Below, one piece after another: positions 7,257 through 18,397 of a stretch of DNA of 23,162 bases (position 1 is its first letter; each line of letters opens with the position of its first letter). Position numbers and translations under genes: made by a program. Below the pieces are notes generated by a model. It was not told the DNA's origin and did not search any database. It worked only from the letters and a program-made list of their open reading frames with translations. Source of the stretch: a virus; the IMG/VR virus record IMGVR_UViG_3300026276_000083, positions 1 to 23,162 of that record; one strand, given 5' to 3'.

Positions 7257-8084
7257 TCAGGCTTTAAATTCACCGATGAAGGTTTCAACTTCTACGTCGG
7301 TGAAGTTGGTTTCGAGCAGTTCGCGGAACTCTGTAGCCATATGCTCTTCTTCGGTTTCCAGCTGGACAATGCGCAGAACCAGCACCGGAGCATTGCCGCC
7401 GGTCAAGACGCTGTAGCGAAGGCGGAAGCGGCGATCACCCAGACCTTCATACGGCACGCACTTAAATTCAAAAGCCGCTGGCATGACTTCTTTGCTTTTC
7501 GCTTCCACGCTTTCCATTACTGACCGTTTGGCACCGAAATCACTGTCTTCATGATCCGCCGAGCTGGATGCTTCGATGGTGATCTTACGAACGCCGCCGA
7601 TCGCTTTCTTGATGTCCAGCACTTCGCCGTCAGCGGTGAAAGCAATCAGGAATTCAGACCAGTCTTCCAGCCACTCGGCCAGATCTTTCTGTGAGTTTTT
7701 GGCACCGTTGATATTTAGCAAAGCTTGGAATGGGGCAGTGCGTTTCAGCTTCAGTACAGCGGTGTTATCGGCGTGTCCTGGCATATCCAGTGTGCCGAGG
7801 TTGAATACTGTCACCGCTGCCATGTTGTCGGCATTGATGAAGCTGCGCACGCCAGCACCTGCATACTGTTTACAGTAGCGGCAGAAGTCGTGAATGCTGG
7901 CAGTTTCCATTTTCCCGCGGAAGCGAAAGCGGCCATCATGCAGGCTTTCGAGAGAATGAATGCGCACTGACTCTGGCAGAGCTACAGCGGGGCAATCAGC
8001 GGAGGAAAGACGCTCTTCCAGCAGCGTCGAAAAAGACATGTCGCGGACTTCTTTTATTGCTGATGCGTCTAAAACTTGAGACAT
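7257..8084 (-). CDS. DUF2303 family protein (YfdQ-like)
   Basis: A 275-residue protein of the DUF2303 family, common in left operons of enterobacterial prophages (E. coli YfdQ is a member). The opening MSQVLDASAIKEVRDM, the central FRGKMETASIHDFCRYCKQY and FQALLNINGAKNSQKDLAEWLEDW, and the C-terminal beta-rich region ending EVETFIGEFKA fit the family. It is soluble, with no signal peptide. It lies 35 bp downstream of the YfdP-like gene, as in other prophages. The biochemical role is unknown. Confidence 0.82.
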   Translation of the reverse strand: MSQVLDASAIKEVRDMSFSTLLEERLSSADCPAVALPESVRIHSLESLHDGRFRFRGKMETASIHDFCRYCKQYAGAGVRSFINADNMAAVTVFNLGTLDMPGHADNTAVLKLKRTAPFQALLNINGAKNSQKDLAEWLEDWSEFLIAFTADGEVLDIKKAIGGVRKITIEASSSADHEDSDFGAKRSVMESVEAKSKEVMPAAFEFKCVPYEGLGDRRFRLRYSVLTGGNAPVLVLRIVQLETEEEHMATEFRELLETNFTDVEVETFIGEFKA

Positions 8085-8119: not shown

Positions 8120-8491
8120 TTATCGCGCGTCGCGGAGTTTGCCGTCAGCAGCACCCGCAATTGTGAACAGCTGGCCTTGGTCTTCCTGCATGATGGACAG
8201 CTTGCCGCCTTTGCCGACGTACATCGGGGTTTCGGTCGTGTCTTCTTCCGACGTTTTCCCGCGCGGCGTTGGTGCTGAGAACTTCAGTTTGTGAGCCAGC
8301 ATTACGCGTTTTTCTTCCATCGAATTACTGATGCGGGAAACATCAATCTCGATGGTCACTTTGCCTTTACCGCCGTTGTTGAGAACGCCCAGAGCAGCGG
8401 CATTCAGCGCAGCGGCGATTTTGTTTTCGAAAATACCGGCGTCCAGTTCGGAGAGAAACTCCGGGACGTTGGTCATACGACTTTCAGTCAT
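8120..8491 (-). CDS. YfdP-like phage protein, 123 aa
   Basis: Small acidic protein beginning MTESRMTNVPEFLSELDAGIFENKIAAALN, with a central beta segment GKGKVTIEIDVSRIS and a C-terminal GKLSIMQEDQGQLF. It usually accompanies DUF2303 in prophages, hence the YfdP-like label. I chose ATG 8491 because GAGG lies 8 nt upstream. ATG 8497 has that motif only 2 nt away, and 8518 has none. It is the first sizeable gene after the pL leader. Function is unknown. Confidence 0.68.
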   Translation of the reverse strand: MTESRMTNVPEFLSELDAGIFENKIAAALNAAALGVLNNGGKGKVTIEIDVSRISNSMEEKRVMLAHKLKFSAPTPRGKTSEEDTTETPMYVGKGGKLSIMQEDQGQLFTIAGAADGKLRDAR

Positions 8492-8504
8492 TTTCATGCC
8501 CTCG

Positions 8505-8630
8505 TTATCGCGGCGCACACCGCGGGAAATTACTCACACACATAGAAAAGGGCCACCGGTTACGCACTGGGTGTGCTGGTGGGGCCAGCGAACCCTTGTC
8601 TATGTCTGCGAAAAAATTGGCGGTGGTCAT
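8505..8630 (-). CDS. Leader ORF, 41 aa
   Basis: The frame starts MTTANFFADIDKGSLAPPAH, has the basic stretch VRNRWPFSMCVSN and ends RCAPR. It stops just before the ribosome binding site of the next gene. Its ATG (8630) lies 2 nt after a three-codon mini-ORF (ATG-TTC-TGA, 8641-8633). That mini-ORF has a good GGGGGAG site, so re-initiation is plausible. The frame can be extended to ATG 8708 (67 aa). It looks like leader peptides found in front of prophage early operons. Translation is not proven. Confidence 0.45.
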   Translation of the reverse strand: MTTANFFADIDKGSLAPPAHPVRNRWPFSMCVSNFPRCAPR

Positions 8631-8686
8631 GATCAGAACATTATCTTCGCTCCCCCTTGGGTAGGTTGAAGAGTCATGCCACCGCC
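8619..8686 (-). repeat. Inverted repeat GGCGGTGG / CCACCGCC in pL leader
   Basis: An 8-bp perfect inverted repeat (8619-8626 and 8679-8686) encloses the GGGGGAG site, the mini-ORF and the start of the 41-codon leader ORF. If it forms in RNA it would place the leader start codon at the base of a large loop, which could regulate leader translation. Significance is uncertain. Confidence 0.4.
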
Positions 8687-8727: not shown

Positions 8728-8790
8728 TCTGGTCGGGCGGCGGGAGTTGAACCCGCAACAGGGTTAGGAGCCCTGCCATCACCGGATGCT
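8728..8790 (-). ncRNA. tRNA-like anticodon and T arms in pL leader RNA
   Basis: In the leftward RNA, CAGGG-CTCCTAA-CCCTG forms a 5-bp stem with a 7-nt loop, exactly an anticodon arm (CCT at anticodon positions). GCGGG-TTCAACT-CCCGC forms a canonical T arm. It is followed by CGCCCGA and then CCA, like a tRNA 3' end. No matching 5' acceptor strand (TCGGGCG) or D arm is seen, and only 2 nt separate the two arms. It is therefore not a working tRNA. Possible roles are an RNase P signal, an antisense loop with anti-Shine-Dalgarno CTCCT, or a remnant. Confidence 0.6.
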
Positions 8791-8792
8791 TG

Positions 8793-8877
8793 GCACAACG
8801 TTAAGAGCACTGATTCTGTGGTTCAGAAGGTTGATTGTTAGTGAGACGCTCAACAACCAGTGCTCTTAACGTTGTGC
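8793..8877 (-). ncRNA. Structured pL leader element: 20-bp stem enclosing two hairpins
   Basis: 8793-8812 and 8858-8877 are perfect 20-nt reverse complements, separated by 45 nt. The enclosed RNA can form TTCTG-AACCA-CAGAA and a second hairpin with TTGTT/AACAA ends. The predicted pL start (about 8884) leaves only a few unpaired nucleotides before the stem. The 3' arm contains TGCTCTTAAC, close to rrn and lambda boxA. No T-run follows, so it is not a simple terminator. Candidates are a nut/put-type antitermination site or a C4/P4-CI-like regulatory RNA. Confidence 0.65.
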
Positions 8878-9160: not shown

Positions 9161-9299
9161 TTATTTGCGCAATTTGCGGACAAATATTTGTTCTGCAACG
9201 CCGAGAATGCAGGATGGGTCAGTGATCTCTGATAATGGAATTCGAGTGTCATCAACCTCTAAAAAACCAAGGCCGTTGCCGCCTTCAAGAAATCGATAG
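9063..9299 (+). CDS. Possible small ORF convergent with the repressor gene, 78 aa
   Basis: The frame begins MKIKQGGFGMGILLKKNN and its first ~33 codons lie outside the repressor gene. The rest runs antisense through the last ~140 bp of cI. An internal ATG (9093) is preceded by a G-rich AGGGTGGG. The LexA-like box lies 35 bp upstream, so an SOS-induced antirepressor or antisense role is conceivable. No family is recognised and the antisense overlap makes chance openness likely. Confidence 0.25.
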   Translation: MKIKQGGFGMGILLKKNNQGGYDHTLVDDEEIVYLRNLRTNICSATPRMQDGSVISDNGIRVSSTSKKPRPLPPSRNR

Positions 9300-9757
9300 G
9301 TTGAAATCTCATTATGAATTTTAGTAACAATTAGTTCCCCGTTACCAGGCTTTGCTGTTGGATCAACAACAACAATGGCCCCAGCTGGCGCTTCAGCAAC
9401 CCCTGAATTCTTTTTCATGATGTAGGCTCGGAAATGTTTAGGAAGTTGCTCCATCCAAAGCACTGCATCACCGGTTTGCCCATTCTCGTCCCATACATCT
9501 ACCTGCATAGAAACGTCGATTTTCTTCAGCTCCGCTCGATCCGAGCCTTGCATTGAGCCAACACCGTTTATCAGCCAATCAGCACTAATCCCCAATGCCG
9601 CAGCCAGTCTCCCAGAGAACTTCGATGTCTCATTTTTCCCAGAAAGTATTTTAGAAATAATCGATTGTTGGACACCAGAACGCCGAGCCAGCTCGGTTTG
9701 AGAGCTAATGCCCAGCTCAGTCATCGCGTGGTTAAGTCGTTCAGATAGTTTTTTCAT
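9161..9757 (-). CDS. cI: CI-type prophage repressor with degenerate S24 domain
   Basis: Maintains lysogeny by binding OL and OR. The N-terminal HTH covers about residues 8-60 (TELARRSGVQQSIISKILSG), and the C-terminal domain has the LexA/CI S24 fold (AIVVVDPTAKPGNGELIVTK). A serine is kept (S118 in KKNSGV), but the glycine and methionine of the usual GxSM are changed. The lysine region expected as FKKL reads TYRFL (154-157), with no lysine. I see no Ala-Gly cleavage site in the linker. Self-cleavage therefore looks impaired. The protein has 198 residues. The gene is divergent from cro. Confidence 0.88.
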   Translation of the reverse strand: MKKLSERLNHAMTELGISSQTELARRSGVQQSIISKILSGKNETSKFSGRLAAALGISADWLINGVGSMQGSDRAELKKIDVSMQVDVWDENGQTGDAVLWMEQLPKHFRAYIMKKNSGVAEAPAGAIVVVDPTAKPGNGELIVTKIHNEISTYRFLEGGNGLGFLEVDDTRIPLSEITDPSCILGVAEQIFVRKLRK

Positions 9758-17121: not shown

Positions 17122-17940
17122 ATGAACCTTGAAACGATTTTGAAGCATTTTTCTCCGAAAGGCCTGTCAATCAGCGACAGTTCCCGCGCTACCGCGAGTG
17201 ATGCGCTGAATATCACTGACATTATGGCGGCGCTGGGCATGACGCAGAGCGGCGCTGAATTCGGGCTGCGCTTGTTCCTGGCAAAAGCAGGGATCAGCGA
17301 TCAGGACCGTGCGATAGCGATCGGCATGCTTACTCAGTACGCCAAACAACACGCGCCCAAGCATATCGGGAAGGTCGCCGGGCGCCGCATGGCCCAATGT
17401 CTCCGCATTATGGCCACAATGGCGTTTGAAGATTATGCGCGGTCGGCAGCGGCCACGTCTGATTGTCCGTGCTGTTCCGGTACCGGTTTTCTGAAAGAGA
17501 AGAGAACCTTTATAAATCAGTTGGCAATTGACCGTCGCGAATATCTTGAGGCGTTGCCGGGCAATTTAGGCCTGCTTTACCGCGATGAAATGAAGTCTAA
17601 AACGGAAGGCGAAGAGATAGTTGATGTCATTTGCCAGCCGTGCAAAGGAAAGGGTGTTATATCGAGCCGATGCCGTTGTAACGGGACCGGAAAAGTAGTC
17701 GATCGGGAGAAGTCGATTCTGATGGGGCTGCCGGTAGAAAAGGAATGCCCGCGCTGTCATGGTGTTGGTTATTCCCGCCTGCCAGCGTCAGTAGCGCACC
17801 GCGCCGTGAAAGCTTTGCTCCCAGACCTGCCAGAGAGAACGTGGAACAACAGCTGGAAACCATTTTACGAAAAGCTAATAACCAAATGCTTCATTGAGGA
17901 GTCGGCAGCAGAGTCGGAATTTAAAAAGGTAACCCAGTGA
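17122..17940 (+). CDS. Late antiterminator Q, zinc-finger type
   Basis: Antitermination protein of the Antiterm family (phage 82 Q type), 272 residues. The middle carries four DnaJ-like cysteine repeats: CPCCSGTG, CQPCKGKG, CRCNGTG and CPRCHGVG. It loads on RNA polymerase at the late promoter just downstream and lets it pass terminators such as tR' and those in the late operon. I chose ATG 17122 with GTGTGGAG upstream; the longer frame from 17080 overlaps the DUF968 gene. It is the last gene of the right early operon. Confidence 0.88.
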   Translation: MNLETILKHFSPKGLSISDSSRATASDALNITDIMAALGMTQSGAEFGLRLFLAKAGISDQDRAIAIGMLTQYAKQHAPKHIGKVAGRRMAQCLRIMATMAFEDYARSAAATSDCPCCSGTGFLKEKRTFINQLAIDRREYLEALPGNLGLLYRDEMKSKTEGEEIVDVICQPCKGKGVISSRCRCNGTGKVVDREKSILMGLPVEKECPRCHGVGYSRLPASVAHRAVKALLPDLPERTWNNSWKPFYEKLITKCFIEESAAESEFKKVTQ

Positions 17941-17948
17941 TTTAGACG

Positions 17949-17977
17949 TTGCAAAAGTTGCCGAATCTGGCTAGATT
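17949..17977 (+). promoter_or_regulatory. Candidate late promoter pR'
   Basis: TTGCAA (17949-17954), a 17-bp spacer and TAGATT (17972-17977) lie 9 bp after the Q stop, where lambdoid late promoters sit. Transcription would start near 17984 and meet the terminator at 18010-18040 after a short leader, as in the lambda pR'-tR' pair. Confidence 0.6.
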
Positions 17978-18009
17978 TATCCCAATGATGGAAAATTATA
18001 CCTGATATC

Positions 18010-18040
18010 AAGCCTCGGCACTCGCCGGGGCTTTGTCGTT
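18010..18040 (+). terminator. Terminator tR' in the late leader
   Basis: AAGCCTCGGC pairs with GCCGGGGCTT (one G-T pair) around the loop ACTC. The T-rich TGTCGTTTCT follows. In lysogens it should stop late transcription; Q should override it. Confidence 0.7.
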
Positions 18041-18265
18041 TCTGGAGGATAGTAAAATGCACCAGTAAACGGATAGACCGCAGGCGTCAGCCAACGCAGC
18101 AGTAGTGATGCTGCTCCGAGTCCCCATAGTGGGAGCCAGATGCAGGTCCGAACTGCAATATGCGCTGGTGAGGGTTAATAAAGAAAAAGACATACCGGTA
18201 GAGCAGCTCGAACGCCAAACGAGCACCGGTTATTAGCGGCGGAGAGCGACAGAACACTCAAGGGC
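18041..18265 (+). other. Late-leader region without a clear gene, rich in hairpins
   Basis: GGAGG followed by ATG at 18058 gives only a three-codon frame. A 42-codon frame (18108-18236, MLLRVPIVGARCRSELQYAL) has no ribosome binding site and may be a decayed gene. Several RNA stems are possible: CCC/GGG near 18122-18133, TGCAG/CTGCA with a 7-nt loop (18141-18157), and the nested stem at 18194-18230. No tRNA passes inspection. I cannot assign a function. Confidence 0.45.
18194..18230 (+). repeat. Nested stem-loop in late leader
   Basis: ACCGGT at 18194-18199 pairs with ACCGGT at 18225-18230. Inside, GCTCG pairs with CGAGC around AACGCCAAA, leaving a one-sided bulge AGAGCA. It has no T-run, so it is not an intrinsic terminator. 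Confidence 0.45.
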
Positions 18266-18397
18266 ATGAGCGCGGCCACTGCGAAAAGTGGTATGGAATT
18301 AGAATATGCACATACTACTCAACCGTCATGTTTGAGATTCAATCTAACCGCTTTATCTGGGATAGTGGCGATACCTTACTATTCCAGAGAATTTATA

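Follow-up and report, generated by a model that had tools for sequence, protein, structure and literature searches.

Gene layout of the window and its left operon

The window, by which we mean the whole stretch of 23,162 nucleotides analysed, is a lambdoid prophage. Cro, CII, O, an antirepressor and Q lie to the right of the CI gene, while the leftward operon opens with a phrog_204 gene and closes with xis and int. The genes around the start of this operon and its predicted promoter are as follows.

9161-9757, minus strand: CI
8919-8914 and 8896-8891, minus strand: predicted pL promoter, -35 TTGACA and -10 CATAGT separated by 17 nt (consensus scan, 10 of 12 matches)
8120-8518, minus strand: phrog_204, first gene of the left operon (comparison of the window open reading frames with PHROGs)
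7257-8084: DUF2303/YfdQ, next after phrog_204 in the left operon

The nearest relatives of this prophage are Rahnella prophages and copies borne on Rahnella plasmids. Used as a DNA query, the leader matched Rahnella plasmids in part and returned no phage or E. coli matches. An initial annotation of this DNA had recognised no N gene in the left operon. In agreement with this, comparison of the 30 window open reading frames with PHROGs yielded only a Q-like protein and nothing N-like, although a small divergent N could escape such a comparison. An untranslated region 3' of Q (17940-18266, plus strand) carries a terminator-like GCCTCGGCACTCGCCGGGGC hairpin; a motif scan of this region found no cassette of the type described below for pL.

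A covarying hairpin at the 5' end of the predicted pL transcript

The pL leader begins with a long hairpin, the parts of which are listed here.

8858-8877, minus strand: 5' arm, GCACAACGTTAAGAGCACTG (inverted repeat and covariation)
8837-8857 (approximate), minus strand: first small internal hairpin (minimum free energy fold; absent from the centroid)
8814-8828, minus strand: second small internal hairpin, TTCTG-AACCA-CAGAA (minimum free energy and centroid folds)
8793-8812, minus strand: 3' arm, CAGTGCTCTTAACGTTGTGC (inverted repeat and covariation)

The perfect 20-nt inverted repeat with a 45-nt interior that had been described at this site lies exactly where it was placed. The arms GCACAACGTTAAGAGCACTG and CAGTGCTCTTAACGTTGTGC are perfect reverse complements and form, by a wide margin, the longest and best inverted repeat in the 23-kb window. 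Folded as RNA of the leftward strand, the element reaches -45.1 kcal/mol, compared with -22.2 kcal/mol for shuffled sequences (z = -7.2; 0 of 200 shuffles as low). Both of the small hairpins reported within the stem are present in the minimum free energy structure, while the centroid retains the second only. The hairpin base lies 14 nt beyond the -10 element, which places the predicted RNA start about 7 nt upstream of the hairpin, as had been proposed, and the 14-nt spacing is kept in the Rahnella relatives L084 and L085, whose promoter sequences are different.

Conservation of the stem was analysed in two sets of relatives. Among 28 distinct perfect-register hairpins, which were found by the pairing itself, 96.8% of cells are paired, and both partners have changed in 14 of the 19 base pairs. 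Covariation scores 0.661, whereas shuffles reach 0.201 and slid versions no more than 0.153. A further alignment, in which a wrong stretch of L366 had been placed, was left out of the analysis. The covariation named earlier as a check on the element is therefore present. An independent set comprised 71 loci picked solely by the start of an adjoining tRNA-like part, with the hairpin disregarded. Here ungapped pairing gave too low an estimate of the hairpin, because the commonest relatives have a bulged A and a U-U mismatch, and a duplex-energy test with a swapped-arm control was used instead. A stem of -20 kcal/mol or better was present at 65 of the 71 loci, as against 27% when arms were swapped between dissimilar loci and 9% when arms were shuffled. 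In many relatives the bulge and the mismatch fall at positions that are perfectly paired in the window, the pairing of which is an extreme case rather than the rule. On the sense strand, G-U cells outnumber A-C cells by 34 to 1, as expected of RNA, although G-U pairs were permitted when the hairpins were selected. An exact-pattern search of 395 genomes of the order returned no matches, either because the pattern allowed too little variation or because the sample was too wide. These results show that an RNA structure is under selection, and they support the hairpin as a genuine structure at the start of the predicted pL transcript. The hairpin interiors differ among relatives, so that no conserved seed for a target in trans is apparent.

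The hairpin runs into a tRNA-like fold and a terminator-like hairpin

The hairpin makes up the first module of the untranslated pL leader. A tRNA-like fold follows it, and a hairpin resembling an intrinsic terminator closes the leader; another hairpin then precedes the first gene. The downstream parts of the leader are the following.

8730-8799, minus strand: tRNA-like fold (tRNA-Sec model, 28.1 bits, E 0.0016, below the gathering score)
8788-8777, minus strand: short D-like arm of the tRNA-like fold
8776-8758, minus strand: anticodon-like arm, loop CTCCTAA
8756-8740, minus strand: T arm, loop TTCAACT
8611-8686, minus strand: terminator-like hairpin, GGCGGTGG (8686-8679) with CCACCGCC (8626-8619), then AATTTTTT
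8533-8612, minus strand: second long hairpin, just upstream of the first gene (-39.0 kcal/mol)

The initial annotation was thus right about the presence of an RNA element but overlooked the adjoining tRNA-like fold, the terminator-like hairpin and the copies of the cassette in late leaders (see below), and these missed parts suggest a processed non-coding RNA no less strongly than a control site specific to pL. The tRNA-like fold of the window ends 3' in CGCCCGACCA, and its acceptor stem is a poor, degenerate match. Neither ARAGORN nor the Rfam tRNA model at its gathering score reported a tRNA gene in the window; the T-arm segment resembles annotated phage tRNA-Leu genes with weak E-values.

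The GTTGTG that closes the 3' hairpin arm is shared with the 5' strand of the tRNA-like acceptor. Relatives conserve a second partner for GTTGTGGTG, the terminal part of the 3' arm: its complement CACCACAAC lies downstream, and a perfect downstream complement of at least 7 nt was found at 78% of 65 loci, compared with 7% of shuffles. A helix-length test of the acceptor strand that allowed G-U pairs was uninformative and was redone with Watson-Crick pairs only. The GUUGUGG strand of relatives can accordingly pair with the hairpin 5' arm upstream or with CCACAAC downstream. Because both partners are conserved, the hairpin base and the tRNA-like acceptor are probably mutually exclusive, and they appear to compete for one strand; in the window itself, the acceptor strand is poorly matched.

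The loop of the terminator-like hairpin (8657-8633, minus strand) contains a Shine-Dalgarno-like GGGGGAG followed by ATG TTC TGA (8641-8633). A second long hairpin is also present in SfV and ST64B, with related arms and an interior, GACGGGCTCATAACCCAATCC, common to the upstream hairpin of L012; this interior motif was found in 144 of 251 leaders.

Hairpin and tRNA-like cassettes form a family in enterobacterial prophages

Cassettes of hairpin and tRNA-like part constitute a family that enterobacterial lambdoid prophages carry in early-left as well as late leaders, and they recur in hundreds of prophages of gut bacteria. They occur singly or in tandem in the pL leaders of YfdQ-type prophages (Rahnella, SfV, ST64B and mEp460), and the leader plan, with one to several hairpins, recurs in Rahnella, Serratia, Shigella SfV, Salmonella ST64B, coliphage mEp460 and Hafnia yong2. 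Cassettes are also found in late leaders, between Q and holin. The phrog_204 gene lies downstream in 31 of 120 contigs that carry one form of the tRNA-like part; in several examined others, the tRNA-like part lies between a Q-type antiterminator and holin, again with terminators 3'. No terminator was seen between cassette and gene in the Hafnia group.

A nearly intact tRNA lies directly 3' of the hairpin in L074-L077 (around 2891-2964) and in yong2 (L099, 1691-1763, minus strand), and these tRNA-like parts are recognised as tRNA by Rfam or ARAGORN. The anticodon arm varies among these relatives, being different in L075, for example, and the L074 loop is without U33, which makes decoding by the tRNA-like part unlikely.

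The long hairpin itself matches no curated Rfam family at the gathering score. The closest likeness to a known RNA is to STnc100 (RF02076), a prophage non-coding RNA whose model contains a UGGUGAAU...GGCACCA fold and ends at a terminator. In SfV and ST64B, this fold lies directly 3' of a member of the hairpin family, and the model scores 39.5 and 35.1 bits, respectively, against their tRNA-like parts, below the gathering score of 47 bits. In contrast, the long hairpin falls outside the paired region of the Rfam model, and the window gave no STnc100 match between 8480 and 8960 at E values up to 5. Previous studies have shown that STnc100 copies are expressed in EHEC, with one verified by Northern blot (PMC5331693), and that one copy lies downstream of stx2 (PMC12370729); the prophage sRNA PasD is reported to be related to STnc100 (PMC13192938).

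Candidate functions of the leader cassette

For function, we favour a processed, structured non-coding leader RNA over an RNA antiterminator, at a probability of roughly 0.45. The cassette would be a structured non-coding RNA gene embedded within the leader. Most pL transcripts would stop at the downstream terminator-like hairpin, and read-through past it would supply the left operon. The hairpin is a possible substrate of RNase III and the tRNA-like fold of RNase P, and processing would yield a stable, STnc100-type small RNA; exclusive pairing of the hairpin base or the tRNA-like acceptor would couple folding to processing. We infer this from the occurrence of the cassette at two promoters, in tandem and before terminators, from folds that RNases could recognise and from the accumulation of related RNAs in cells. 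In its favour we count the covariation, the terminator-followed cassettes in pL and late leaders, the STnc100 matches in SfV and ST64B, the near-intact tRNAs of L074-L077 and yong2 and the downstream complement of GTTGTGGTG. Against it stand the tRNA-like fold of the window, which has a poor acceptor and is matched by neither ARAGORN nor STnc100, the variable hairpin interiors and the Hafnia group, where no terminator is visible before the gene. The STnc100 literature, moreover, concerns other copies, among them the one downstream of stx2 (PMC12370729).

The main competing account is that a cis-acting RNA antiterminator, formed by the hairpin with or without the tRNA-like fold, modifies the polymerase from pL, reads through the terminators and replaces N, which we consider unlikely. 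Its position is suggestive: the hairpin lies at about +7 of pL and a terminator-like hairpin stands before the first gene, and HK022 putL is likewise an RNA element just downstream of PL and ahead of terminators (PMC9378689). The apparent lack of an N-like protein also fits, as do the length of the stem and its sequence blocks, ACAAC/GTTGT at the base and AAGAGCA/TGCTCTT higher up, which are similar among relatives while interiors vary, although the upper stem sequence is not invariant. However, a put site is about 70 nt long with two tandem stem-loops (PMC9378689), whereas the window has one 20-bp stem around two small hairpins, and the parallel to put drawn in the initial annotation was not borne out in sequence. 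The window leader scores 25-26 against put, which 76-87% of shuffles equal (fractions 0.87 and 0.76), while putL against putR, as a control, scores 55 with 0 of 200 shuffles as high; the put sites were located by self-comparison of the HK022 record (L381), where they are unannotated (minus strand near 28282, plus strand near 29479). In HK022, put antitermination works through the zinc-binding domain of the RNA polymerase beta' subunit. Unlike in HK022, no pR copy was found, and no further hairpin of the 20-bp pL type was found on the pR side or elsewhere in the window. The cassette also occurs in late leaders, where Q acts already. A broader version, in which a widespread class of RNA-only antiterminators or fold switches, with hairpin and tRNA-like fold sharing one strand, replaces N in a large lambdoid group and is used in late leaders too, seems to us equally doubtful. 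An antiterminator would explain early gene expression in phages without N; mEpimmI phages have an N-like protein, Gp17, in a study that does not mention mEp460 (PMC11893012).

Competition for the GUUGUG strand could also act as an attenuation switch, the choice between hairpin and tRNA-like fold deciding whether the terminator works and perhaps responding to a ribosome, to a protein or to an enzyme of tRNA processing. The two conserved, mutually exclusive partners of this strand in relatives and the Shine-Dalgarno-like sequence with ATG TTC TGA in the terminator loop, in Rahnella and others, argue for such a switch. What makes it improbable is that inspection revealed no pairing of either partner with the terminator arms that relatives have kept, that the SD...RTARTGTTC motif occurs in just 36 of 251 leaders, some of which lack the stop codon, and that the acceptor stem is weak in the window. 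P1/P7 C4 and P4 CI are phage leader RNAs processed by host RNases, including RNase P, and the leader RNA of the window could similarly give rise to an antisense immunity or regulatory RNA that targets a superinfecting phage or antirepressor mRNA. It is tRNA-like, weak isrK/c4-a1b1 matches lie at the equivalent place in mEp460, and CCCGGCACC, the STnc100-like 3' end in SfV and ST64B, is complementary to GGTGCCGGG, which lies within a regulator/antirepressor gene, some 370 nt from its start (L382, 27618; L383, about 5473; L384, about 6020). We nevertheless give this reading little credence. The Rfam search proposed earlier for C4 returned neither C4 nor any other curated family at the gathering score, the C4 model (RF01695) found no match in the window at E values up to 5, and the mEp460 leader is without the complementary motif. 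Target complementarity is unconvincing for the window leader: 11-nt complementarities to the rest of the phage reach at most about two to three times chance, with none common between phages. The phage also has a protein CI. Very improbable, finally, is a nut-type site at which NusB/S10 would bind TGCTCTTA of the 3' arm as a functional boxA. Like lambda nutL (boxA-boxB), which works with N, the element follows pL, and the boxA-like letters TGCTCTTAAC noted in the initial annotation are indeed present in the 3' arm; the window matches YGCTCTTW, as do 29 of the 61 distinct arms of the anchor-selected set. Unlike in nutL, these letters are fully base-paired within a stable stem and are not conserved in the hairpin family, boxA being retained in just 7 of 53 distinct perfect-register arms, and no N gene was found.

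If the favoured reading of a processed leader RNA is correct, it would show where STnc100-type sRNAs originate, which promoter drives them and how they mature. Independently of function, a covarying hairpin that is absent from curated Rfam opens the early operon of common prophages, where it adjoins a tRNA-like RNA. A single form of the tRNA-like part, the mEp460 type, is carried by 843 of 5,426 complete E. coli genomes, indicating that prophages with the cassette are common, and the five E. coli matches listed have no annotation at the tRNA-like part. In the complete E. coli genomes, 237 of the 947 places at which the mEp460-type part occurs are on plasmids.
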